Assembly: GCF_023015865.1 (NCBI RefSeq)
Contig: NZ_JALKBC010000003.1
Coordinates: 248,001 to 312,000 of the forward strand
Reading direction: 5' to 3'
Length of the DNA stretch: 64,000 nt
DNA from: Arenibacter sp. F26102
GTDB lineage: Bacteria; Bacteroidota; Bacteroidia; Flavobacteriales; Flavobacteriaceae
Shown here: piece after piece, positions 11,533-23,232 of the stretch
Position numbering within the stretch: position 1 is the first letter of the stretch
Layout of the letters: each line of letters opens with the position of its first letter
Notes under the pieces: model-generated
Seen by the model: the letters and a program-made list of their open reading frames with translations, nothing else
Database searches by the model: none
Told to the model about the DNA's origin: nothing
Program-made: the position numbers and the translations under genes

Positions 11533-11572
11533 GAAAACCCCTACTCTTCACAAAAGTTGCTCAATATCCAAT

Positions 11573-11607
11573 AAAAAAGCGACGACCCCATAGGTCGTCG
11601 CTTTTTT
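11573..11607 (+). terminator. Strong Rho-independent terminator after secA
   Basis: A perfect 15-base-pair stem: AAAAAAGCGACGACC (11573-11587) and GGTCGTCGCTTTTTT (11593-11607), around a five-base loop. The A and T runs at the two ends allow it to act in both directions. Confidence 0.95.
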
Positions 11608-11842
11608 ATTGTCCGAATTTTAATATAATTATGATACAACTAAAGCATTTTCCTACGGGAAAGGAAATATTGGGAATGCAGAACGAATATGAAAAATCTT
11701 GGACGAAAGTTCACCAATAAAAAATTCAGGTAACTTTTCGGTGGCAAATAACATAAAAATATTGTTTTAACCTTAAAATTCATCACGCTTTAATTCAAAC
11801 TATTATCTTTACCTTCAGAATACAACCATTAACCGCTTTTTA

Positions 11843-13051
11843 ATGCAAATACCCATTCAGGATCAGTACCGACTAAAGGACAAAGTCCGTTTAACGTTAA
11901 GGGTTAACTATATCTCCTCTGTCCTCTCAATTGTTTTCGGTATTGTCTGCATATATTTTCTTAAAATCACCCAAATTATCCCAGCTACTTTTATTGTTTT
12001 CGGTATACTAAATTTAGTTAACACCCTTTTGTTCCACAAACATAATACACTTGGGATTACCTATAATTTTACTTCAATAATGGCCTTGGCGGCCTCAGTT
12101 GTAATTACCTTATACAGCGGCGGAATTAACAGTCCCTTTATTTTTGTACTGGCATTGGTGGTCTTTGCCGGATACATCAGCACAAAGGTATATGGAAGGG
12201 TTTACCTCAACTTAAACCTGCTCATTATTATTCTTATATATTCCCAGAGCATGGCGGAATTTAATTTTACAGAAAACGTTGTCCCTGTTGAAAGTAAAAA
12301 CATGTTTGCACTTTTTAGCATTCTGTTCTCCGTTTATCTCTTAGGGGGAGTTATTGGAAAAAATCTCCTTAAAGCACATAACGAACTTCACAAGATCCGA
12401 AATGAAAATGAGGCCCGTATCAAGGAAAAGGACACTCTTTTAAAGGAAATACACCACAGGGTAAAAAACAATCTGCAGACGGTATCTAGCTTACTCAGTC
12501 TTCAATCCAGAAGTATTGAGGAGCCTAGAATTAAAACCTTGATAAAAAGTAGTCAAAATAGGGTGATTTCAATGGCTATGGTGCATGAAATGTTGTATAT
12601 GCGACATGATCTGTCCAAAATTGAATATAAGTCCTATGTAGAGGAACTAAGTGATTATTTGTTAAGATCCTTCAAAGGCACTGACAACAATATAACCTTG
12701 AACATTATTATCCCAGATGTTAAATTGGGGATCGACACGGCCATACCGTTAGGTCTTTTGATCAATGAAGTAATTACCAATGCCCTAAAATATGGTATAA
12801 AGGACAACGACGAGGGTGAAATACATATAGAACTTCTAAAGTCCAATAGTAAGGATTATGTTCTTTACATTGGTGACAATGGCGAAGGCTTTCCTGAGAA
12901 TATAAGCCATAAGAATACAAAATCCTTGGGACTAAAACTTATCCATAATCTGGCCCGACAATTAAAAGGGACCATAAATAGGGATTTGTCAAAAAAAGGC
13001 ACAAACTACATTGTGAAATTTTCCGATATACAACATAAATTCAAGACTTAA
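11843..13051 (+). CDS. Membrane sensor histidine kinase, HisKA_2 type
   Basis: A 402-residue protein. Residues 20-175 hold about six hydrophobic helices with no obvious periplasmic sensor. A short coiled linker leads to the HisKA_2 dimerisation motif KEIHHRVKNNLQTVSSLLSL, whose phospho-acceptor is His204 or His205. The ATPase domain follows with LLINEVITNALKYG (N box), GDNGEGFPE (G1) and GLKLIHNLARQLKG (G2). HisKA_2 kinases usually lack an attached receiver and signal to LytTR or output-only regulators; no response regulator lies next to it. It stands alone after the secA terminator. Confidence 0.9.
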   Translation: MQIPIQDQYRLKDKVRLTLRVNYISSVLSIVFGIVCIYFLKITQIIPATFIVFGILNLVNTLLFHKHNTLGITYNFTSIMALAASVVITLYSGGINSPFIFVLALVVFAGYISTKVYGRVYLNLNLLIIILIYSQSMAEFNFTENVVPVESKNMFALFSILFSVYLLGGVIGKNLLKAHNELHKIRNENEARIKEKDTLLKEIHHRVKNNLQTVSSLLSLQSRSIEEPRIKTLIKSSQNRVISMAMVHEMLYMRHDLSKIEYKSYVEELSDYLLRSFKGTDNNITLNIIIPDVKLGIDTAIPLGLLINEVITNALKYGIKDNDEGEIHIELLKSNSKDYVLYIGDNGEGFPENISHKNTKSLGLKLIHNLARQLKGTINRDLSKKGTNYIVKFSDIQHKFKT

Positions 13052-13162: not shown

Positions 13163-13279
13163 TTACTTTTCCTGTTTCACAGGCACTTTTAAAGGACGGA
13201 GAATACCCTTTGTTTTGGGAAACGTAATTATATAACTAAGACAAAGGCAGATAAGAACTAAAATTGCAAATAACATCAT
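13163..13279 (-). CDS. 38-residue membrane peptide, copy A
   Basis: A short frame on the minus strand, ATG at 13277-13279 and stop at 13163-13165, encodes a hydrophobic helix (MMLFAILVLICLCLSYIITF) followed by PKTKGILRPLKVPVKQEK. It aligns without gaps to a second peptide at 18951-19067; I count 17 identical positions of 38, including Cys11, Cys13, the FPK triplet and the basic tail. That conservation, and the same position just downstream of a paralogous small secreted protein (52 bases away here), argues that it is translated. Function unknown; it resembles small membrane peptides that accompany a secreted partner. Confidence 0.6.
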   Translation of the reverse strand: MMLFAILVLICLCLSYIITFPKTKGILRPLKVPVKQEK

Positions 13280-13331
13280 AGTGGTCCAATTTGATACTAC
13301 CTATTTAGCGTAGTAGGTTAATTATTGAGTA

Positions 13332-13556
13332 TTAAGCCAATTTAGCTTTGTTTAATTTGGTTGTAAAAGACAATTCCTTTGTTACCCTAGAATTCTTGAA
13401 CATATACAATCGGGCAACACTATTTTCATTATTCACGGCAACTACTGTAACGATATTCATGGCAACGGGCTCAACTTTTACCTGGCTATTATCGTTTTGT
13501 GCCTGAGCGGCCAAACCCATAAAAAGAATGAAGATTAAAGTTAAAATGGTTTTCAT
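13332..13556 (-). CDS. Small secreted protein, paralogue 1 of 3
   Basis: A 74-residue protein with a clear signal peptide ending AQAQ (MKTILTLIFILFMGLAAQAQ). The mature part is about 54 residues and ends with the shared block VARLYMFKNSRVTKELSF, then TKLNKAKLA. Two paralogues lie at 19089 and 22993. Compared with them it has a five-residue deletion in the centre, where they read KQEVAVKNEN. I chose the internal ATG at 13554-13556, because the longer upstream frame has no family match and all three copies share this start and leader. Function unknown; no cysteine or catalytic motif is visible. Confidence 0.8.
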   Translation of the reverse strand: MKTILTLIFILFMGLAAQAQNDNSQVKVEPVAMNIVTVVAVNNENSVARLYMFKNSRVTKELSFTTKLNKAKLA

Positions 13557-13557
13557 G

Positions 13558-13592
13558 ACTTGCGTTTTGTTATATATATAACTTGGGCAAGT
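13558..13592 (-). promoter_or_regulatory. Nested inverted-repeat leader of paralogue 1
   Basis: Immediately before the start codon, read in the gene direction, the arms ACTTGC and GCAAGT enclose the perfect palindrome GTTATATATATAAC (13569-13582). The same 35-base arrangement precedes paralogues 2 and 3 although the bases between the elements vary. The rest of this 387-base intergenic region holds a diverged version of the more distant repeat block (roughly 13700-13730) and, at its other end, the TetR operator. Confidence 0.65.
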
Positions 13593-13905
13593 GTGTTTTT
13601 CTAGGTTCCAATTCGTTGAAAAACAGGGTTTTTCGTTGAGTTGAAAAATGTCTGTTGAAGTGTTAATAAATGCCGCTAAACGCAGGGAGGGCCAAAATCC
13701 ATTTAGCGGTAAAACATGAATTTCAGCGTTAGTCAAAGGTTGGTGAGCCAAATAATTAAAATGTTCCTGGGCCAATAGGAAAAACTTAGTAGTTGGAAAA
13801 AATATAATCCGTGACCTTCCTTCCACGGGCCAACAATAAGTATTGCGCTACTATTGCCAATTCACCCCACTCAAATTAAATAAATGTTAAAACACCCTAT
13901 TATTT

Positions 13906-13921
13906 CTAAACGATTGTTTAG
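13906..13921. promoter_or_regulatory. TetR-family operator, autoregulatory copy
   Basis: CTAAACGATTGTTTAG is an inverted repeat with arms CTAAAC and GTTTAG, 22 bases before the TetR gene. It overlaps a TAGTTTTG -7 element (13919-13926), so binding would block transcription. The exact reverse complement lies before the AhpD-like gene at 14582. Confidence 0.8.
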
Positions 13922-13943
13922 TTTTGTCCCGTAGTTAGAGATT

Positions 13944-14507
13944 ATGGCAAGAAAGAAGGCATATATAGAAGAAGAGGTTATTGAAAAGGCAATGCGCTTA
14001 TTTTGGCGCAACGGTTACGAATCCACCTCCATGCAAATGCTTGAAAAAGAAATGGGCATTAACAAGTTTTCTATCTATTCTAGTTTTGGAAGTAAGCATG
14101 GTGTTTTTTTGGAAAGTCTAAAAAGCTACAAAAAAAAGGTTAATAGCATCTTTGAAAAATTTAAAAACTCAACCAATGGTGTTGAGGGCATTAAAGAATT
14201 TTTTTATGACTCCGTAAATCTATGTTATCAGGAAGGAAATCAAAAAGGCTGTTTAATAAGCAATACTTACAATGAGTTTTCAGAAACCGAAGATGATTTG
14301 GTAAAAGGGGAAATGACTTCTTTCATGGATAATCTTAAAACGCTATTGATTGCCAAATTGAGAATGGATGGAACCAAAGATGAAAAGACTATAACTAAAC
14401 AAGCTAATTTTTTATTATTGGCCAAACACGGTTTAGCTGCCGCTTCCAGAGTAAATAGTAGGCAAGAAATTGAAGACTATATTGAAATGACATTTAAAAA
14501 CCTTTAA
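13944..14507 (+). CDS. TetR/AcrR family transcriptional regulator
   Basis: A 187-residue repressor with an N-terminal TetR helix-turn-helix (residues 8-55): AMRLFWRNGYESTSMQML followed by MGINKFSIYSSFGSK. The C-terminal ligand-binding domain (GVEGIKEFFYDSV, KGCLISNTYNE) resembles the TetR_C_6 group of regulators that often sense electrophiles or xenobiotics. Matching operators lie before itself and before the next gene, so it very probably represses both. Ligand unknown. Confidence 0.9.
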   Translation: MARKKAYIEEEVIEKAMRLFWRNGYESTSMQMLEKEMGINKFSIYSSFGSKHGVFLESLKSYKKKVNSIFEKFKNSTNGVEGIKEFFYDSVNLCYQEGNQKGCLISNTYNEFSETEDDLVKGEMTSFMDNLKTLLIAKLRMDGTKDEKTITKQANFLLLAKHGLAAASRVNSRQEIEDYIEMTFKNL

Positions 14508-14527
14508 ACATTTTTTTTAACCGATAA

Positions 14528-14543
14528 CTAAACAATCGTTTAG
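14528..14543. promoter_or_regulatory. TetR-family operator, target copy
   Basis: CTAAACAATCGTTTAG is the exact reverse complement of the site at 13906-13921 and lies 38 bases before the AhpD-like gene. Flanking AA/TT extends the symmetry to AACTAAACAATCGTTTAGTT. Confidence 0.8.
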
Positions 14544-14581
14544 TTATTTTATATCAAGTACAACAATTAAAATTTGAAATT

Positions 14582-15139
14582 ATGACAACATTAAAAGTGC
14601 ACAACATTGAAACTGCTCCTGAAGCAAGTAAACCATTATTGGAAAAATCGCAAAAAGCTTATGGCATGATCCCCGGCCTGCATGGTGTCTTAGCTGGAGC
14701 TCCAGAAGTCCTGGATGCCTACCAAAAGCTCCATGAACTATTTGTAAACACATCTTTTAACGAAGAGGAATTAACCGTAGTATGGCAATCCATCAACGTT
14801 GAACACGCATGCCATTATTGTGTACCTGCACATACAGGAATAGCAAAAATGATGAAGGTAGACAATAGTATTACCGAAGCATTACGTACCGAAACAGCCC
14901 TTGAAAATCCAAAATTAGAGGCCTTACGAACCATGACATTGACCATAGTTCGCAATCGAGGAAACGTAACCCAAGAAAATCTGGAAACATTCTTTGCTGT
15001 AGGATACGAACAAAGGCACGTTTTGGAAATCATATTAGGTTTATCACAGAAAGTGATCAGTAACTATACAAATCATATTGCAAATACACCAATAGATGCA
15101 GCTTTCAAAAGTTTTGCATGGAAGAAGGAAACAGTATAA
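14582..15139 (+). CDS. AhpD-like alkylhydroperoxidase / CMD family protein
   Basis: A 185-residue protein of the carboxymuconolactone decarboxylase superfamily. The redox motif HACHYCVPAHTGIAKM gives CxxCxxxH as in AhpD-like peroxidases (cysteines near residues 78 and 81). It lies directly after a TetR gene with a shared operator, a common arrangement for inducible detoxification genes. A terminator follows 26 bases after the stop. It is unrelated in sequence detail to the shorter CMD protein at 886. Confidence 0.88.
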   Translation: MTTLKVHNIETAPEASKPLLEKSQKAYGMIPGLHGVLAGAPEVLDAYQKLHELFVNTSFNEEELTVVWQSINVEHACHYCVPAHTGIAKMMKVDNSITEALRTETALENPKLEALRTMTLTIVRNRGNVTQENLETFFAVGYEQRHVLEIILGLSQKVISNYTNHIANTPIDAAFKSFAWKKETV

Positions 15140-15165
15140 TTATAAAACCACAGGTCAACAGCTTT

Positions 15166-15194
15166 AAACCTTCCGTCTATTCGGAAGGTTTATT
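15166..15194 (+). terminator. Rho-independent terminator after the AhpD-like gene
   Basis: A ten-base-pair stem, AAACCTTCCG (15166-15175) and CGGAAGGTTT (15182-15191), with loop TCTATT and a short AT-rich run after it. Confidence 0.8.
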
Positions 15195-15265
15195 TATAAG
15201 ACAGGAAATAATATATAAAAAAATTGATTTAATAAATTCAATTAATATTTAAACAGCAAAAGGAC

Positions 15266-15574
15266 ATGATTAAATTAACAGTAATGTATCCGAATACGGA
15301 AGATTTAAAATTCAATAAAAAATATTACACCACTGAACATAGTCAATTACTTTCAGAGCTTTTGGGCGATGCAGTAAAGTCATCAGATATAAACGTAGGA
15401 CTTACGGGAGCAACTCCAGACCAGCCCGCACCATATTTAATAATTGCCAACCTTACTTTCGAATCCTTGGCATCGTTTCAACAGTCCTTTGGAGCAAATG
15501 CCGAAAAGATCCTGGCCGATCTACCAAATTTCACAAATGTTAATCCAGTAGTTCAAATTAGTGAGGTTTTATAA
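15266..15574 (+). CDS. EthD family protein
   Basis: A 102-residue dimeric alpha/beta-barrel-type protein. The N-terminal MIKLTVMYPN, the KKYYTTEHSQLLSEL segment with a conserved His, and the C-terminal FTNVNPVVQISEV are typical of EthD. Members are small accessory proteins in oxidation pathways, often of unknown catalytic role. It sits in a string of small stress or detoxification genes, with no operon partner closer than 85 bases. Confidence 0.8.
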   Translation: MIKLTVMYPNTEDLKFNKKYYTTEHSQLLSELLGDAVKSSDINVGLTGATPDQPAPYLIIANLTFESLASFQQSFGANAEKILADLPNFTNVNPVVQISEVL

Positions 15575-15659
15575 ATCTGAACTATTATTGCATTGGAAAA
15601 GGAGATAAAATTTGGTTTTCTCCCAATATAAAATAGATTATACATTAAAGAATAGAATT

Positions 15660-16307
15660 ATGGCCGAAAAAATTAAACTGGATATTGTTTCCGATGTGGT
15701 CTGCCCATGGTGTACCATAGGCTATAAACGTCTGGAAAAGGCAATTGCTGAATTAGGAATAGAAGATAAAATAGAGCTGGAATGGCAGCCTTTTGAACTA
15801 AATCCAAATATGCCAAAAGAGGGTCAGAACGTTCAAGAGCATCTTACCGAAAAATATGGTTCTAGTTTGGAAGACCAAAAACGCTCACAGGAATATATGG
15901 CCGAGGCAGGGGCAGAACTGGGATTTACCTTCGATTATTTTGATAAGATGAAGATTGTAAACACCAGGGACGCACATATTTTATTGGATTACGCAAAGGA
16001 AAATGGCAAACAGACCGAACTAAAAATGCGACTTATGGCTGCTTTTTTTAGCGAACGAAAAGATGTTTCCAAAAGGGAAGTACTTCTTCAGGAACTAGAG
16101 GTAGTGGGCCTAAATGCAGACGTGGCCATAGCCAGATTGGATAGTGACGATGCCCGTTATCAAGTACAGTCAAAAGAAACCTACTGGCAAAGTCTTGGGG
16201 TTTCCTCGGTCCCTACTATGGTATTCAATATGAAAAGTGCACTTACCGGAGCTCAACCCGTTGATGTCTACAAACAAGTTTTGACAGAGTTGCTTGAAGA
16301 AAAGTAA
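15660..16307 (+). CDS. DsbA-family oxidoreductase, FrnE-like
   Basis: A 215-residue thioredoxin-fold protein without a signal peptide, so cytoplasmic. The active site is VVCPWCTIGYKRLE, with CPWC near residues 15-18. The inserted helical domain and the late cis-Pro motif GVSSVPTMVFN match the FrnE/2-hydroxychromene-isomerase-like group. The ATG at 15660 was preferred; an in-frame TTG at 15612 would add 16 residues without family support. It may act in thiol redox stress; the substrate is unknown. Confidence 0.88.
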   Translation: MAEKIKLDIVSDVVCPWCTIGYKRLEKAIAELGIEDKIELEWQPFELNPNMPKEGQNVQEHLTEKYGSSLEDQKRSQEYMAEAGAELGFTFDYFDKMKIVNTRDAHILLDYAKENGKQTELKMRLMAAFFSERKDVSKREVLLQELEVVGLNADVAIARLDSDDARYQVQSKETYWQSLGVSSVPTMVFNMKSALTGAQPVDVYKQVLTELLEEK

Positions 16308-16344
16308 ATAATTAGCTATTGGGTATTAACCACAAAAAAACCAT

Positions 16345-17586
16345 ATGAAAAGAGTAGTGATTACAGGATTGGGAGCCTTGACTCCAATTGGAAATTCGGT
16401 TGATGAATTTTGGGAAAGTGCTATAAAAGGCAAAAATGGATTCTCAAAAATCACCAAGTTCGACCCTTCTTTGTTTAAAACAACCTTCGCTGGTGAATTA
16501 AAGGATTTCTCACCCGAAAAATATCTTGATCGCAACGAAATAAAAAGGAGTGATCCCTTTACCCAGTATGCTCTCTGTTCCGTAACAGAGGCATTTGGTG
16601 ATAGCGGATTAAACTTGGACACAATTTCTCCTTTTGATATTGGGGTAATTTGGGGAACTGGTCAGGGCGGTATGAAAACCTTTGAGGATGAAGTAAAGAA
16701 TTATTCCCAGGGCGGGATGAATCCCCGCTTCAATCCCTTTTTTATACCTAAACTTCTGGCGAATATGGCATCGGGAATGATTGCCATGAAATTCGGATTA
16801 ATGGGAATTAATTACACAGCGGTTTCGGCCTGTGCATCCTCAAGCTCTGCCATTATGGATGCCTTTAACTATATTCGATTAAACAAGGCCAAAGTAATGG
16901 TAACCGGGGGGTCGGAAGCTCCAATAACCGAGGCCTCTATTGGTGGTTTCAGCGCAATGAAAGCTTTATCTACCAGAAATGATGATCCACAAGGGGCGTC
17001 AAGGCCCTTCGACGAAAATCGGGACGGATTTGTTATGGGCGAAGGAGCCGGTGCCTTAATTCTTGAAGAATATGAACATGCCAAAAAACGGGGCGCAAAA
17101 ATCTATGCCGAAATAGTAGGAGCTGCCATGACCGATGATGCCTATCACATTTCAGCTACACATCCAGAGGGTATCGGCGCTATAAAAGCAATGCAATTGG
17201 CCATGGAGGAAGCAAAACTGAATCCGGGAGAGATCAATTATTTAAACACCCACAGTACCTCTACCCCCGTTGGTGACTTAAGTGAGATAAAGGCTGTAGC
17301 AAAAACCTTCAACAACGAGTTTAGCAATCTAAAAATAAGCGCTACAAAATCCATGACCGGGCATCTATTGGGAGCAGCAGGTGCAGTAGAAGCGATTTTA
17401 TCCATAAAGGCCATTCAAAACAATAAAATACCTCCAACCATTAACACTACAAAGATAGATTCCAATATTCCCGCATCCATGCCTATAGTACTTAAGGAGG
17501 CCATAGACCATAATGTAAATGTAGCCATGAGCAATACCTTTGGATTTGGGGGGCACAACGCTACGACAATTTTTAAAAAAATATAA
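16345..17586 (+). CDS. fabF: 3-oxoacyl-ACP synthase II (FabF-type)
   Basis: A 413-residue condensing enzyme with a complete Cys-His-His triad at C163 (VSACASSSS), H303 (THSTSTPVGD) and H340 (KSMTGHLLGAAGA), the same numbering as E. coli FabF, with K335. It would extend acyl-ACPs with malonyl-ACP. Unlike the usual arrangement, no acpP or rnc gene is adjacent; it follows a FrnE-like gene and precedes a haloacid dehalogenase. It is therefore probably a second, accessory FabF, and may serve special fatty acids or the pigment pathway 10 kb downstream. Confidence 0.93.
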   Translation: MKRVVITGLGALTPIGNSVDEFWESAIKGKNGFSKITKFDPSLFKTTFAGELKDFSPEKYLDRNEIKRSDPFTQYALCSVTEAFGDSGLNLDTISPFDIGVIWGTGQGGMKTFEDEVKNYSQGGMNPRFNPFFIPKLLANMASGMIAMKFGLMGINYTAVSACASSSSAIMDAFNYIRLNKAKVMVTGGSEAPITEASIGGFSAMKALSTRNDDPQGASRPFDENRDGFVMGEGAGALILEEYEHAKKRGAKIYAEIVGAAMTDDAYHISATHPEGIGAIKAMQLAMEEAKLNPGEINYLNTHSTSTPVGDLSEIKAVAKTFNNEFSNLKISATKSMTGHLLGAAGAVEAILSIKAIQNNKIPPTINTTKIDSNIPASMPIVLKEAIDHNVNVAMSNTFGFGGHNATTIFKKI

Positions 17587-17653
17587 AATCTGGTGTTGCA
17601 CAATAATCCTGAGGCAACCAAAGACCCATTAATGCTAAGAAATACAAACCCAT

Positions 17654-18340
17654 ATGAAACCACCAAAGGTTTTATTTTTTGACGTAAATGAATCCCTATT
17701 GGACTTAGGGAATATGAAAAATAGCATAGGGAAGGCCTTAGGTGGCCGGGAAGATCTCTTGCCGCTTTGGTTCACTACCATGTTGCAATACTCCCTAGTA
17801 TCGACAGCTAGTAGGCAATATGCAGATTTTGGCACCATAGGAGCCGCCACCTTGAGAATGGTCGCCGCTAATAATGGTATTCCATTATCGGAGCAGGATG
17901 CCAAGGAGGCACTAGCCCCATTGCACTCCTTACCCACTCACCCAGAGGTAAAGGCTGCCTTGGAGAATATTAGAAATGCCGGTTATAAAATGGTATCCTT
18001 GACCAATTCCTCAAAAAAAGGAGTCGAGATGCAATTTAAGAATGCCGCTCTTACCGACTATTTCGATGAACGATTAAGTATAGAGGATCTTGGCAAGTAC
18101 AAGCCCGATAGCGATGTCTATAATTGGGCAGCCAGGAAAATGGGAGTACAACCACATGAATGTATAATGATTGCTGCCCATGGGTGGGATATTGCCGGTG
18201 CAATGTGGGCCGGATGGAGAGGTGCTTTCATTGCCCGTCCCGGACAACAGCTGTATCCCTTGGCCCCACGGCCCGAGATAATTGAACCAGATCTACTCAA
18301 AATTTCCGAAAAACTCATCGCACTAAAAACCAATATATAG
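17654..18340 (+). CDS. Haloacid dehalogenase type II family hydrolase
   Basis: A 228-residue HAD enzyme. Motif I is VLFFDVNESLLDL with Asp10 as nucleophile, motif II is MVSLTNSSKKGV, and the C-terminal motif MIAAHGWDIAGAMWAGW is characteristic of L-2-haloacid dehalogenases. The cap region (LWFTTMLQYSLV) also fits. It would hydrolyse 2-haloalkanoic acids, though many relatives act on other substrates. It lies 67 bases after fabF. Confidence 0.88.
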   Translation: MKPPKVLFFDVNESLLDLGNMKNSIGKALGGREDLLPLWFTTMLQYSLVSTASRQYADFGTIGAATLRMVAANNGIPLSEQDAKEALAPLHSLPTHPEVKAALENIRNAGYKMVSLTNSSKKGVEMQFKNAALTDYFDERLSIEDLGKYKPDSDVYNWAARKMGVQPHECIMIAAHGWDIAGAMWAGWRGAFIARPGQQLYPLAPRPEIIEPDLLKISEKLIALKTNI

Positions 18341-18670
18341 GACAAGCCCTCATCATCGTCACTATGCTGGTGGCACTTTATGTACATTTCAGCCCCAACG
18401 GACCTGCAGCGGTATTGCCTTTTGGGAGCAAACCTCATAACTTAAAAATATTCTACCCAATACTGCCTTTTATTAATATACACCTATTTAGAAAATCGCT
18501 CTTAAACAGGAACTTCTTAGATCAAACGGGCTCGATATTCCCAATATTGGTTTCAGCCTTTTTTATTAACTTGTAACCTCAGCCTACAATTTAGTTATAA
18601 CTTAGCGATAACAGTAATCAGTTTAGAGTCAATGGTCTACCGATAAACTTATCTTAAGAAAACAATCTAT
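18341..18670. other. Intergenic region with no supported gene
   Basis: This 330-base stretch holds a 70-codon frame at 18364-18576 with an unconvincing composition (many Pro, Phe and Asn, no signal or domain) and no promoter match that I trust. I see no RNA gene, hairpin terminator or repeat in it. Confidence 0.5.
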
Positions 18671-18913
18671 ATGAAAACTATGACATGTAAACAATTGGGA
18701 GGTGCCTGTGACATGCAATTTCACGCCAATACTTTTGAAGAAATGGCAGAACTTAGCAAAAAGCATGGTATGCAAATGTTTAAGGCGGGTGACAAAGAGC
18801 ACCTGGAGGCCATGAATAAAATGCAGGAACTCATGAAATCACAAGATGCCATGGCCAAATGGTTCGAAAGCAAAAAAAAGGAATTTGAAAAGCTGCCAGA
18901 AAATAATTTATAA
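18671..18913 (+). CDS. DUF1059 small protein
   Basis: An 80-residue soluble protein with the DUF1059 pattern MTCKQLGGACDMQFHANTF followed by a methionine-rich helix (KHGMQMFKAGDKEHLEAMNKM). The two cysteines and a His suggest a metal or redox role, but this is not established. An internal ATG at 18680 is an alternative start that removes only three residues. It faces the minus-strand peptide unit at 18951. Confidence 0.8.
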   Translation: MKTMTCKQLGGACDMQFHANTFEEMAELSKKHGMQMFKAGDKEHLEAMNKMQELMKSQDAMAKWFESKKKEFEKLPENNL

Positions 18914-18950
18914 ATCTTGAAGGATAGAATGCAGCCTAAGCGCGGCGAAA

Positions 18951-19067
18951 TTATTTATCCAGTTTCACCTGCTTGTTCAAAGCTCTTGTATTATCCGTTG
19001 GTTTAGGAAAAACAACCATGTAGTTAAGACAGATGCAAATGGGGACTAAAAGTGCAATTAATATCAC
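18951..19067 (-). CDS. 38-residue membrane peptide, copy B
   Basis: This minus-strand frame starts with GTG at 19065-19067 (an in-frame TAA lies three codons upstream, so no longer version exists) and stops at 18951-18953. It encodes ILIALLVPICICLNYMVVF followed by PKPTDNTRALNKQVKLDK. It is the same length as copy A at 13163-13279 and aligns without gaps with 17 identities, including Cys11 and Cys13. It lies 21 bases after secreted paralogue 2. Function unknown. Confidence 0.6.
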   Translation of the reverse strand: MILIALLVPICICLNYMVVFPKPTDNTRALNKQVKLDK

Positions 19068-19088
19068 AGTGTTTTATTTTTATAAGTA

Positions 19089-19328
19089 TTAAGCCAATTT
19101 AGATTTGTTCAATTTGGTAGAGAAAGACAAAGCTTTAGTTACCTTAGAGTTTTTGAACATATACAAACGGGCAACAGAATTTTCATTTTTAACAGCAACT
19201 TCTTGTTTTGCCGTAGCAGTTACAATACTCATGGTAACGGTTTCAACCTTAACTTCGGCAGCATCGTTTTGAGCTTGTGCAGCTACTCCGATAAAAAGAA
19301 CAAAGATTAAAGTTAAAATGGTTTTCAT
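19089..19328 (-). CDS. Small secreted protein, paralogue 2 of 3
   Basis: A 79-residue protein with signal peptide MKTILTLIFVLFIGVAAQAQ and a mature part that shares most positions with the copy at 22993 and slightly fewer with the copy at 13332. The conserved C-terminal block is VARLYMFKNSKVTKALSF, then STKLNKSKLA. It is followed in the same direction by membrane peptide copy B and is divergent from a methyltransferase gene at 19654. No known domain is recognised. Confidence 0.8.
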   Translation of the reverse strand: MKTILTLIFVLFIGVAAQAQNDAAEVKVETVTMSIVTATAKQEVAVKNENSVARLYMFKNSKVTKALSFSTKLNKSKLA

Positions 19329-19329
19329 G

Positions 19330-19364
19330 ACTTGCGTTTTGTTATATATATAACTGAGGCAAGT
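19330..19364 (-). promoter_or_regulatory. Nested inverted-repeat leader of paralogue 2
   Basis: ACTTGC and GCAAGT arms enclose GTTATATATATAAC (19341-19354), directly before the start codon. The arms and the central palindrome are identical to those of the other copies, while the spacer toward the distal arm differs (CTCA here, CCCA in the others, in the gene direction). Confidence 0.65.
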
Positions 19365-19478
19365 GTACTTTTCCAGGTTCTGATTCGATGAAAAACACTG
19401 TTTCTCGTTAAGAGGTCAAAATCCAGATTAAGTGCAAAAAAATCACGATTAACGCCATGGACTCCAAAATCACTTTAA

Positions 19479-19523
19479 CGATGAAATTTTGTATTTCATC
19501 GATGACCGTAAGTGTTTACTTAC
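19479..19523. repeat. Conserved hairpin and palindrome block upstream of paralogue 2
   Basis: CGATGAAAT (19479-19487) and ATTTCATCG (19493-19501) form a perfect nine-base inverted repeat around TTTGT; GTAAGTGTTTACTTAC (19508-19523) follows. The block recurs at 23383-23428. With the nested leader repeat and the AT-rich sequence between, it fills most of the 325-base gap between divergent genes; the remainder shows nothing I can name. Confidence 0.55.
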
Positions 19524-19653
19524 AATTTTAGCTTCTCCAAATTGTAATTTTAGACACTTAAGGTAAAAAATTTGATAAAATAAAGCCGTCCCGGGATAAA
19601 GATTATTCCCGATATTTATGTCTAAACACAGTAATTCAAAATGAAATACCTCA

Positions 19654-20301
19654 TTGGACCGCTATAAGGAAACATTCGAGACCTGGAACAAAATAGCTTC
19701 CCTGTACCAAGACAAGTTTATGGACCTGGACTTGTACAATAAAACCTATGATCTTATTTGCAATTCGATATCAACAAAAAATGCCCGAATTTTGGAAATA
19801 GGCTGTGGTCCCGGAAACATTACAAGATATCTTTTATCCAAAAGACCCGACTTCGATATACTGGGGATAGATGTTGCGACAAATATGATAAAACTTGCCG
19901 AAAAGAACAATCCAACCGCTACATTCAAGGTTTTGGACGGCCGTCGGATCGGTGACCTAAACATCCAATATGATGGAATAGTTTGTGGTTTTTGCCTACC
20001 CTTTCTTTCACCAGAAGATTGTGTTCAATTAATTGCCGATTCCAACAGACTGTTATTAAACAAAGGGCTGCTCTATTTAAGTTTTGTGGAGGGTGATCCC
20101 AATAAATCGGACTTCAAAGTGGGTAGCAATGGAGACAGGGTCTATTTCCATTTCCATAAATTGGATACACTAAAAACACTTCTGGCTTCAAATTCATTTG
20201 AAGAACCTGAGGTCTACCATATAGATTATGAGAGAAAAGAAACCTCATTGGAAAAACATACGGTCCTGATAAGCAGAAAAAATCTACTCCAAAAGGACTA
20301 A
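19654..20301 (+). CDS. Class I SAM-dependent methyltransferase
   Basis: A 215-residue methyltransferase with motif I ILEIGCGPGNITRYLL near residue 47 and the acidic ribose-binding motif DILGIDVATNMI. The start is a TTG at 19654 (reading MDRYKETFETWNKIAS); the only nearby ATG, at 19641, is out of frame and stops after eight codons. The ETFETWNKIA start fits relatives that I recall. Substrate unknown. It is divergent from the small secreted protein paralogue 2. Confidence 0.82.
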   Translation: MDRYKETFETWNKIASLYQDKFMDLDLYNKTYDLICNSISTKNARILEIGCGPGNITRYLLSKRPDFDILGIDVATNMIKLAEKNNPTATFKVLDGRRIGDLNIQYDGIVCGFCLPFLSPEDCVQLIADSNRLLLNKGLLYLSFVEGDPNKSDFKVGSNGDRVYFHFHKLDTLKTLLASNSFEEPEVYHIDYERKETSLEKHTVLISRKNLLQKD

Positions 20302-20341
20302 TTGGAAAAAAAACAAAAAATATTGGTCATAATAAATATTA

Positions 20342-20357
20342 ATCGTAATATTGCGAT
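20342..20357. promoter_or_regulatory. Likely ArsR operator
   Basis: ATCGTAATATTGCGAT is a 16-base near-palindrome (one mismatched pair) located 17 bases before the arsR start, the expected place for autoregulation. A related half-site, ATCGCAAT, lies just before the second gene of the operon (about 20724). Confidence 0.7.
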
Positions 20358-20374
20358 ATACAAATGAAACAAAA

Positions 20375-20707
20375 ATGGGTTTAGCCAAAACAGAAATTTT
20401 TTCGGACCAACAAAATGAAATTGCCAGTTTTGCAAAGGTGTTTGGACATCCGGCCCGGGTGGCCATCCTGCAGCATCTTTTTAAACTGAATACCTGTGTT
20501 TGTGGTGATCTGGTAAGTGAAATTGGATTGGCACAGCCGACCATATCACAGCACCTAAAAGAATTGAAACTCCTAGGACTCATTAAAGGTAGCGTGGAAG
20601 GCACCAGTGTATGTTATTGTATAAATACTGAAAAATGGTTGGAAATGAAGGAAATCTTAAACCAATTTCTTAATCAGGACATCTCCAAACAAGGGGATTG
20701 CTGCTAA
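20375..20707 (+). CDS. arsR: ArsR-family arsenic-responsive repressor
   Basis: A 110-residue winged-helix regulator. The metalloid-binding CxC occurs in NTCVCGDLVSEIGL at the start of the DNA-recognition region, followed by QPTISQHLKELKLLGLI. It would repress this operon until arsenite or antimonite binds. The protein ends GDCC, an extra cysteine pair beyond the usual fold. I chose the ATG at 20375; an upstream TTG at 20351 lies inside the operator. Confidence 0.92.
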   Translation: MGLAKTEIFSDQQNEIASFAKVFGHPARVAILQHLFKLNTCVCGDLVSEIGLAQPTISQHLKELKLLGLIKGSVEGTSVCYCINTEKWLEMKEILNQFLNQDISKQGDCC

Positions 20708-20746
20708 AAAATTTAAATTCTATAATCGCAATAAACAAATAACAAA

Positions 20747-21220
20747 ATGAAACTATCAGAAGTAAAAACAATTTTAGGAAAATTGGATACTATTGCATTC
20801 CAATTGCCGAACGGTAAACTAGTACCCAATCATTTTCACGTTACTGAAGTCGGTAAAATCACCAAGAACTTTATAGACTGTGGCGGAACAGTTCGTAAAG
20901 AGGAAGTTGTAAATTTTCAACTATGGGATTCCATTGACTATGACCATCGACTCCATCCTGAAAAATTGGTCCACATCATTGAACTATCCGAAAAAGTATT
21001 GGAAATTGGGGATTTGGAAATTGAAGTAGAATACCAAGGAGAGACCATTCAAAAATTTGGATTGGACTATGACGGTACCAACTTTCTTTTGGCCACCAAG
21101 CAAACAGATTGTTTGGCGAAGGATAACTGTGGGATTCCGTCTGAAAAACCGAGAATAAAATTATCCCAATTACAAGAGACTTCCGCAAATTGTTGCACTC
21201 CCAATTCCGGCTGCTGCTAA
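20747..21220 (+). CDS. DUF6428 protein of arsenic operons, Cys-rich tail
   Basis: A 157-residue soluble protein I recognise as DUF6428, found in Bacteroidota arsenic operons. The body is a predicted alpha/beta domain (LPNGKLVPNHFHVTEVG). The C-terminus ends NCCTPNSGCC, with four cysteines in the last nine residues, and further cysteines occur at TDCLAKDNCG. The tail suggests thiolate binding of As(III), perhaps as a chaperone handing it to the exporter; this is inference. Confidence 0.78.
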   Translation: MKLSEVKTILGKLDTIAFQLPNGKLVPNHFHVTEVGKITKNFIDCGGTVRKEEVVNFQLWDSIDYDHRLHPEKLVHIIELSEKVLEIGDLEIEVEYQGETIQKFGLDYDGTNFLLATKQTDCLAKDNCGIPSEKPRIKLSQLQETSANCCTPNSGCC

Positions 21221-21250
21221 ACCATTTAACCACACTATAAACATTATTCA

Positions 21251-21883
21251 ATGATGCCCGTAAAAACGAAGGTCTTTGACCAAATAGATCGGACTATCTC
21301 TACACTTAGTATTGATAATATTACTGAGGAGCGTAAAGAAATTTTACAGCCCCTTGCAGAGTATATACAGTCCAAAACAGATACCCAAGAACCCATTAGA
21401 ATTAATTTTATTTGCACCCACAATTCTAGAAGGAGTCACTTATCCCAAATCTGGGCACAAACAATGGCGTACTATTTTAACGTAAAGAATGTACAGTGCT
21501 ATTCGGGTGGAACAGAATCTACCGCCTTATTTCCAATGGTGGCAGAAACCCTAAAAAATACTGGATTCCAAATAGAAACTATTTCGGATGGGAAAAATCC
21601 AATTTATAGCATCAAATATGCCGAAAACGAACCAGCAGTAATAGGTTTTTCAAAGAAATTGGATGATGACTTTAATCCCAAATCGGAATTCGCCGCAGTC
21701 ATGACCTGTTCACAGGCAGATGGGGGTTGTCCGTTCATCGCTGGCGCCGAAAAGCGCATCCCTATAACCTTTGAGGATCCAAAAGCGTTTGACAATACCC
21801 CGCAGCAGGCTGAAAAGTATCAGGAAAGAAGCTTTCAAATTGCAACCGAATTAATGTTCATATTTGCCCAAATAAAATCATAA
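21251..21883 (+). CDS. Low-molecular-weight phosphatase-like arsenate reductase
   Basis: A 210-residue protein with the PTP-loop CTHNSRRS (C-x5-R), placed after NFI as in this ArsC-related family. It would reduce arsenate to arsenite using thiols. It is longer than thioredoxin-coupled ArsC (~130 residues) because of an N-terminal helical extension (residues 1-50) and inserted segments. The context between DUF6428 and acr3 supports arsenate reduction rather than protein dephosphorylation. Start MMPVKTKVFD; the second Met is also possible. Confidence 0.85.
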   Translation: MMPVKTKVFDQIDRTISTLSIDNITEERKEILQPLAEYIQSKTDTQEPIRINFICTHNSRRSHLSQIWAQTMAYYFNVKNVQCYSGGTESTALFPMVAETLKNTGFQIETISDGKNPIYSIKYAENEPAVIGFSKKLDDDFNPKSEFAAVMTCSQADGGCPFIAGAEKRIPITFEDPKAFDNTPQQAEKYQERSFQIATELMFIFAQIKS

Positions 21884-21886
21884 CTA

Positions 21887-22936
21887 ATGGCCTCGAATAA
21901 AAAATTAAGCTTTCTGGACAGCTATCTTACCTTATGGATTTTTTTGGCAATGGCATTGGGCGTAGGCATAGGCTATTTTGCACCCACTTTTCCCAAAATC
22001 ATAGATAGTTTTAGTAGTGGAGCTACGAATATCCCCATTGCCATAGGACTTATCCTAATGATGTATCCGCCATTGGCGAAGGTAGACTACTCCCTTTTGC
22101 CCAAGGTTTTTAAAAACACCAAGATTTTATCCATTTCCTTGATCCTGAATTGGATCATTGGACCCATTTTGATGTTTGCACTGGCCATTACTTTTCTTAG
22201 GGATTACCCAGAATATATGGTGGGATTGATCCTGATTGGATTGGCACGTTGCATTGCCATGGTACTTGTTTGGAACGATCTGGCCGAAGGAAGTAGCGAA
22301 TACGGTGCTGGATTGGTGGCCCTTAATAGTATATTTCAGGTATTTGCCTACAGTTTTTATGCCTGGATCTTTATAACCGTACTCCCTCCCTACTTCGGAT
22401 TTGAAGGGGCAATTGTAGATATTTCGATTGCTACCGTAGCCGAAAGCGTAGCAATTTATTTAGGAATTCCGTTTGCATTGGGTTTTTTGAGCAGATTGAT
22501 CCTGGTCAAAATGAAAGGCGAGGAATGGTACTCCAACAGATTTATTCCAGCTATATCCCCCATGACCTTGATCGCCCTATTGTTTACCATAGTGGTCATG
22601 TTTTCCTTAAAAGGCGAAATGATTGTTGAGATACCCATGGATGTTCTTATCATAGCGGTACCTTTACTCATCTATTTTACGCTAATGTTTATCATTGGAT
22701 TTTTCTTCACCAAAGCCATGGGTGCAGATTACGATAAAACGGCTTCGGTAGCCTTCACGGCGGCAGGGAACAATTTTGAATTGGCTATAGCCGTAGCCAT
22801 AGCCGTATTTGGATTAAATTCAGGACAGGCATTCGCTGGGGTCATTGGCCCCCTGGTGGAGGTCCCCGCATTAATTTTATTGGTCCGTGTGGCCTTTGGG
22901 TTGCGAAAAAGGTATTACCCCAAAGTTACAACCTAG
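21887..22936 (+). CDS. acr3: Arsenite efflux transporter, ACR3 family
   Basis: A 349-residue transporter with ten hydrophobic segments. The conserved ACR3 motif [16 protein letters not shown] contains the essential Cys, and the later [18 protein letters not shown] motif is also typical. It exports arsenite across the inner membrane using the proton gradient. It lies three bases after the reductase gene, at the end of the four-gene arsenic operon. Confidence 0.95.
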
Positions 22937-22992
22937 GACATAGAAAATTTAGGGCTATTAAGAAGTTTGTATGCCGTAAAAAAAAATAGATC

Positions 22993-23232
22993 TTAAGCCA
23001 ATTTAGCTTTGTTCAATTTAGTAGAGAAAGACAATTCTTTGGTTACCTTGGAATTTTTGAACATATACAAACGGGCAACAGCGTTTACATTTTTTACGGC
23101 TACTTCTTGTTTGACAGTAGCAGCAGCGATACTCATGGTAACAGTTTCAACTTTAACTTCAGCAGTACCGTTCTGAGCTTGTGCAGCCAATCCGATAAAA
23201 AGAACAAAGATTAAAGTTAAAATGGTTTTCAT
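22993..23232 (-). CDS. Small secreted protein, paralogue 3 of 3
   Basis: A 79-residue secreted protein with signal peptide MKTILTLIFVLFIGLAAQAQ and C-terminal block VARLYMFKNSKVTKELSF. It is the closest relative of paralogue 2. No 38-residue membrane peptide follows: only 56 bases separate its stop from the acr3 stop, too few to encode one. It is divergent from a methyltransferase gene at 23544, as paralogue 2 is from another one. Confidence 0.8.
   Translation of the reverse strand: MKTILTLIFVLFIGLAAQAQNGTAEVKVETVTMSIAAATVKQEVAVKNVNAVARLYMFKNSKVTKELSFSTKLNKAKLA

Follow-up and report, generated by a model that had tools for sequence, protein, structure and literature searches.

The 38-codon frame behind a small secreted-protein gene in Arenibacter sp. 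F26102 is confirmed as a conserved coding gene, one that is easily overlooked. We refer to the secreted protein as SEC and to the 38-residue predicted membrane peptide as PEP. Computation shows that SEC and PEP are both coding frames, that they are neighbours conserved as a pair, and that the SEC–PEP unit has a distinctive promoter.

PEP is a conserved and constrained short gene

The window (the whole 64,000-nucleotide stretch analysed, positions 248,001 to 312,000 of contig NZ_JALKBC010000003.1) holds three SEC copies and two PEP copies (Table 1). The 38-codon frame of the original prediction is present as described downstream of SEC A (13279-13163, starting with ATG), at a spacing of 52 bp; a longer frame listed for SEC A, reaching to 13826, differs only in starting from an in-frame GTG farther upstream. 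The likeness claimed with an equally long frame behind a second SEC gene was also borne out, PEP A and PEP B aligning without gaps and with 17 identities as printed, or 18/38 if the GTG start is read as methionine. No 38-codon-type frame was found behind SEC C. The genome as a whole contains five SEC genes, the three in the window and a tandem pair on contig C6, and two PEP matches, with none at the tandem genes. A further small element is a hairpin in the SEC A–PEP A gap, whose six predicted pairs show compensatory changes in three of the six among 10 same-genus sequences.

Comparison of synonymous and nonsynonymous changes gave pN/pS below 1 in both copies: pooled values were 0.32 for PEP A, with 0/55 pairs at or above 1 (11 same-genus sequences), and 0.56 for PEP B, with 1/45 such pairs (10 same-genus sequences). 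The helix of PEP B is kept (CICLNYMVVFP and alike), its tail motif is lost, and 4/10 sequences start with GTG or TTG. Because of its lower pN/pS, and of the lost tail motif and the GTG/TTG starts in B, we regard PEP A as the constrained copy; PEP B is a relaxed duplicate with a diverged tail. Of the two duplicated loci originally put forward as evidence of coding, copy B does not amount to a second, equally constrained example.

A PEP profile built from 10 rows and searched over 397 Flavobacteriaceae genomes matched 41 of them at E<=0.01 and 31 at E<=1.5e-4. The ten genomes with weaker matches comprise two with SEC (G102, G026) and eight without it, and these last eight matches look like chance. 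At genus level, 12/18 genomes matched at E<=0.01 and 11/18 at E<=2.4e-15, 10 having two copies. The expectation that the frame should recur behind other family members held true, the frame being conserved behind SEC homologues in many genera; named contigs with PEP include Arenibacter, Cerina, Maribacter, Zobellia, Eudoraea, Robiginitalea, Poritiphilus, Pareuzebyella, Pseudozobellia and Pricia, a part of these contigs coming from metagenome bins. An order-wide sample of 246 genomes returned three Flavobacteriaceae matches, the source genome included, and one marginal match in another family.

Unrelated genes on the opposite strand separate the same-strand SEC copies (window 13557-22992): TetR, EthD, DsbA, ketoacyl synthase and HAD genes and, further on, a methyltransferase, ArsR, DUF6428 and an SBF transporter. 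A hot spot for insertions may be marked by the repeated SEC copies.

Table 1. Features of the SEC–PEP locus in the window, and of related phage loci (the latter given as locus:positions)
Feature	Position	Strand	Description	Sequence
SEC copy A (small secreted protein)	13332..13556	-	74 aa, ATG at 13556	ARLYMFKNSRVTKELSFTTK
PEP copy A	13163..13279	-	38 aa, ATG start, single-helix membrane peptide, basic C-terminal tail	FPKTKGILRPLKVPVK
SEC–PEP gap with small hairpin	13280..13331	-	predicted base pairs	
Conserved region upstream of SEC A	13557..13682	-	repeated TTNANC[GC]-like boxes	
SEC copy B	19089..19328	-	79 aa	
PEP copy B	18951..19067	-	38 aa, GTG start, behind SEC B; diverged duplicate, tail unconserved	
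SEC copy C	22993..23232	-	79 aa; without PEP behind	
Membrane histidine kinase, convergent to SEC–PEP	11843..13051	+	Pfam HisKA_2 and HATPase_c, several hydrophobic segments	
Phage SEC homologue and single-helix gene	L231:2501-2865 (Molly_1); L230:2122-2486 (Colly_1)			
Matrixin-like metalloprotease near SEC-core gene	L231:3786-4385 (Molly_1)		shares repeat promoter	
Matrixin-like metalloprotease near SEC-core gene	L227:4421-4915		below Pfam cut-off	
Signal-less SEC-core phage proteins	L227:4953-5090; L229:2888-3010; L236:3977-4090; L237:4947-5099; L238:4941-5093			

PEP accompanies SEC across genera

SEC was detected at E<=0.001 in 71/397 Flavobacteriaceae genomes and is present in every genome with a strong PEP match (31/31). 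Among 53 PEP rows, 48 lie 2-78 bp behind a same-strand SEC gene and five (L088, L106, L110, L115, L121) have no SEC within 120 bp, most of these loci having been fetched through a PEP match. L121 has a SEC-like stretch, decayed and interrupted by stops, immediately upstream of a weak PEP (between ~4490 and ~4870, minus strand).

We also defined a PEP-like frame by rule, as an ATG within 100 bp behind SEC opening a frame of 30-50 aa with a hydrophobic start and a basic tail. Such frames follow 54/170 SEC genes, again mostly at loci fetched through a PEP match, in 50/63 genomes; controls produced them in 7/1700 shuffled downstream regions and in 1/765 regions that follow other ORFs of 200 codons or more. 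Twelve of the 21 SEC genomes in this set that have no PEP profile match at E<=0.01 contain a qualifying frame, two of these (G182, G307) being doubtful by eye. Where the profile found none, the diverged peptides behind SEC have one helix and often an RPIKVRVKK-like tail. Genomes carry several SEC copies and usually one PEP.

PEP and SEC diverge in parallel: with SecA held constant, the Mantel correlation was r 0.64 (p 0.0005, n=14), calculated on 14/53 rows, one for each locus at which SEC adjoins PEP and the stretch also includes SecA and a full-length kinase, and it could be a product of joint transfer of two adjacent genes. Support for PEP as the partner of SEC comes from its position, from co-occurrence, from correlated divergence on these 14 rows and from an analogous phage pair (see below). 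PEP is not an obligatory neighbour of SEC, most SEC genes being without one.

Predicted form of SEC and PEP

SEC A consists of a signal peptide, recognised by eye, and a conserved basic C-terminal core, in which L62, F64 and T66 are invariant across 67 rows. In its predicted structure a disordered stretch separates the signal helix from a short helix at the C-terminus (mean pLDDT 68, pTM 0.24), with no compact fold in the model. For PEP the prediction is a helix at residues 2-19 and, behind it, a loose tail (mean pLDDT 79). The tail is net positive in 48/52 PEPs, and the first 18 positions of all 52 together contain a single charged residue. Positive segments lie on the cytoplasmic side according to the positive-inside rule, so the positive tail and near-uncharged start would place the PEP tail in the cytoplasm.

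The libraries searched gave no meaningful match for the bacterial SEC/PEP family. In Pfam and NCBIfam neither protein scored close to a curated cut-off (best NCBIfam score 19.7 bits, against a cut-off of 225), no match of weight was found in PADLOC or PHROGs, an Rfam scan gave nothing over SEC or PEP, and sequences of solved structures gave no meaningful match (best E 0.24, or none). A search of open-access papers found no account of the pair. In a class-wide sample of 247 genomes there were 19 SEC matches, including the window's own and three from other Flavobacteriaceae; the remainder were weak (E from 2.8e-5) and began at the end of SEC that bears the signal peptide, and we take them to be chance.

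SEC promoters contain direct repeats resembling LytTR operators

Among the matches listed, the regions upstream of SEC are conserved between genera. Those of SEC A and SEC C are 81% identical over 126 bp, and a DNA-similarity search of the genome with a SEC promoter gave strong scores only at the window's three SEC promoters. The regions contain TTNANC[GC] boxes with a period of ~21 bp, a spacing judged by shuffle controls that ignore kinship among promoters. A box pair at 20-22 bp is present in 78/167 SEC promoters vs 7/749 others, the strict pair being absent from the remaining 89/167. Of the 195 box pairs, 144 are concentrated, on one strand or the other, in the ~300 bp preceding SEC, which make up ~4% of the bases. 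Each SEC start also has a further pair 145 bp upstream on the opposite strand (window 13701, 19473 and 23377, plus strand), facing the divergent genes.

PMC6193735 describes LytTR direct repeats of 9 bp each, mostly spaced by 12 bp (9-12-9), and places such repeats at streptococcal bacteriocin promoters. We liken the SEC boxes to LytTR operators because their ~21-bp period corresponds to this 9-12-9 layout. The genome has 22 LytTR domain matches. The LytTR 9-mer consensus was matched 48 times in 141 SEC promoters vs 25.65 times in shuffles, an excess of only about twofold. The period of the boxes and the LytTR matches in the genome suggest that the SEC promoters may be controlled by a LytTR regulator.

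A membrane histidine kinase is linked to SEC

Close homologues of the convergent kinase (E<=1e-120) are present in 57/397 Flavobacteriaceae genomes, 56 of which have SEC. SEC is convergent to the kinase within 12 kb in 50/57 genomes and within 1 kb in 18/57, these distances being upper bounds because the SEC table is incomplete; of the other seven genomes, four lack a listed SEC on the kinase contig, and in the remaining three it is farther off. The kinase is linked to SEC, yet lies outside its operon, and a box pair was found upstream of 1/77 kinase genes. In G225, the SEC–PEP pair and the kinase are on separate contigs, the kinase there being beside another SEC-like frame. With SecA held constant, the divergence of the kinase followed neither that of PEP (r 0.09, p 0.35, n=14) nor that of SEC (partial r 0.02, p 0.44, n=14). 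Since secA is present in 37/48 mapped loci, the synteny of kinase and SEC may be plain inheritance of the region through shared ancestry. The recurrent position of the kinase suggests that it may be associated with the pair.

Kinase homologues at the equivalent locus in L107, L108, L120 and L121 are shorter (297-301 aa by first start codon). Recurring neighbours, each at 19 to 26 of 48 loci, include an M14 carboxypeptidase, an amidohydrolase, a methionine sulfoxide reductase, an M23 peptidase, and a GDSL lipase together with an ABC ATPase and an FtsX/MacB-type permease. This ATPase–permease pair is present in 21/39 relatives' loci and absent from the mapped stretch of the window. Behind secA, a strong inverted repeat with a T-run (window 11569-11613), with only sub-threshold Rfam matches, is probably the secA terminator. 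A SecM-like arrest peptide acting on the nearby secA, considered because secA is so often present at these loci, was rejected, as SEC–PEP is convergent to secA and outside its transcript.

Phages of these hosts carry SEC homologues

A SEC homologue occurs in eight records of six lytic Maribacter phages (Molly_1-5 and Colly_1). It encodes 65 aa with a signal peptide recognised by eye, and overlaps by 7 bp a gene for a 57-aa protein that has a single hydrophobic stretch and whose tail is basic. This partner has no detectable similarity to PEP, and the PEP profile has no match in phages. PMC8776804 describes Molly and Colly; its accessible passages do not mention the SEC-homologue gene.

Upstream of the phage SEC homologue is a direct repeat with a 21-bp period. 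Its motif in Molly_1, CCGTTNAACG, has six occurrences, always paired, and the pairs precede the SEC homologue, a matrixin-like metalloprotease gene (PF00413) and a third small gene; because it also precedes these two other genes, the repeat may be a plain phage promoter. A search for a host matrixin protease as a partner gave only sub-threshold matches.

Short proteins with the SEC core and, by eye, no signal peptide were found in Cellulophaga phages phi38:1 and Calle_1 and in three IMG/VR sequences; phi40:1, Calle_2, Calle_3 and contig L228 have a SEC-core match at the same place, judged by the match alone. A profile of the five signal-less proteins matched 47/279 genomes, all 47 being SEC genomes, and the matches fall at SEC genes where compared, which argues that the phage core is homologous to bacterial SEC. 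One signal-less protein (P0008) matched the uncharacterised cluster phrog_26162 at E 0.0012 and the Molly protein did so at E 0.025, so the phage form may already sit in that cluster. Other Cellulophaga phages gave tblastn matches to the Molly protein that were weak (E 0.8) and were set aside. The signal-less cores do not obviously fit an extracellular role.

Discussion

Our preferred reading, which we hold tentatively, is that SEC–PEP is a secreted-peptide system under regulation, with PEP as the inner-membrane partner of SEC, for signalling or self-protection. Its export, membrane position, LytTR control and function, as we infer them from sequence, would be as follows. SEC and PEP would form one transcription unit in the Arenibacter/Maribacter/Zobellia group. 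SEC would be exported through its signal peptide and act outside the cell by its basic C-terminal core, while PEP, located in the inner membrane and with its basic tail on the cytoplasmic side, would act on SEC there, either protecting the cell itself or serving as a brake or adaptor in SEC sensing. Expression would be switched by a regulator binding the ~21-bp-period direct repeats, most like a LytTR response regulator, and the leading candidate for the sensor would be the convergent membrane kinase. SEC would have been acquired by phages of these hosts, in one phage genus together with a membrane partner, possibly to interfere with or exploit the host system. Against this reading weigh the divergence of the kinase, which follows neither PEP nor SEC, the near absence of box pairs upstream of kinase genes, the SEC promoters that lack the strict pair, the modest excess of the LytTR 9-mer, and the dissimilarity of the phage membrane gene to PEP. 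Signalling and self-protection both fit, and several SEC copies with one PEP are compatible with either; the conserved SEC core may somewhat favour a conserved receptor or target.

A bacteriocin-like pair, with SEC as a secreted cationic antibacterial peptide acting against close relatives and PEP as the producer's membrane immunity peptide, is possible, though we consider it rather unlikely. The predicted small, cationic, exported-looking peptide beside a single-helix peptide would suit such a pair, as would the ratio of SEC to PEP copies, the divergence of PEP following that of SEC, and the LytTR repeats at streptococcal bacteriocin promoters (PMC6193735). The ABC ATPase–permease pair of the relatives' loci could serve export, but it is missing from the window's mapped stretch. 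The SEC core, moreover, is strongly conserved between genera and not diversified, a recognisable PEP is missing downstream of most SEC genes, and neither protein matches a described family in Pfam, NCBIfam, PADLOC or PHROGs.

We give somewhat less credence to a peptide communication system of marine Flavobacteriaceae hijacked by phages, which would combine LytTR-type control, a Sec-exported peptide, PEP, a HisKA_2 receptor, and lytic phages with a peptide–membrane pair of their own or a signal-less decoy of the core. It is unlikely, too, that PEP is no more than a helper of SEC at the membrane, assisting its export, anchoring or folding and taking no part in signalling or immunity: adjacency and correlated divergence speak for such a helper, but the signal peptide of SEC looks ordinary and most SEC copies do without PEP.

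PEP as a small regulator of the neighbouring kinase appears more doubtful still. The model for it is MgrB, a small inner-membrane regulator acting on PhoQ, which PEP resembles in having ~40 residues, one helix and a regulated-looking promoter. The convergent kinase in 50/57 kinase genomes and a single-helix, basic-tailed peptide that is usually present once per genome agree with this role, but PEP divergence follows the secreted peptide and not the kinase, and in G225 the kinase does not share a contig with the pair. That the PEP frame is not a gene, but a chance frame or DNA kept for another reason, is extremely improbable: the frame is very short, and copy B has its GTG/TTG starts and relaxed tail, but chance is ruled out by pN/pS, above all that of copy A, together with the shuffle and other-ORF controls, and PEP is conserved between genera.

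A secreted peptide with a small membrane partner, as in our preferred reading, is a known kind of system. Streptococcal bacteriocin and competence peptides have a double-glycine leader, in place of which SEC has a Sec-type signal peptide. The LytTR regulons HdrRM and BrsRM of streptococci (PMC6193735) likewise include small secreted peptides, upstream repeats with a ~21-bp period and small membrane proteins. In contrast to these, the SEC host is Gram-negative, the nearby kinase is of the HisKA_2 type, and PEP adjoins SEC and not a LytTR gene.

Peptide quorum sensing of the Agr and Com types employs an exported peptide and a membrane kinase. The SEC locus is similar in its exported-looking peptide, in the membrane kinase nearby and in its phage-carried homologues, agr genes being reported from the C. 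difficile phage phiCDHM1 (PMC3901668). Unlike those systems, it has no recognised AgrB-like processing gene, its kinase does not share an operon with a LytTR regulator, and SEC does not co-vary with the kinase on the 14 rows compared. The type I toxins Fst and Ldr have one helix, a charged tail and 30-50 aa, as PEP does; PEP differs in being co-linear behind a secreted-protein gene and conserved between genera.

To our knowledge, small membrane peptides and peptide signals have been little studied in Bacteroidota. The present case is a tiny gene backed by selection and by synteny across many genera, located beside a regulated secreted peptide whose core is also found in several phages of these hosts. 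If the signalling or competition reading is true, SEC–PEP would offer a tractable Gram-negative peptide system, and would pose the concrete question of what the phages gain from SEC.
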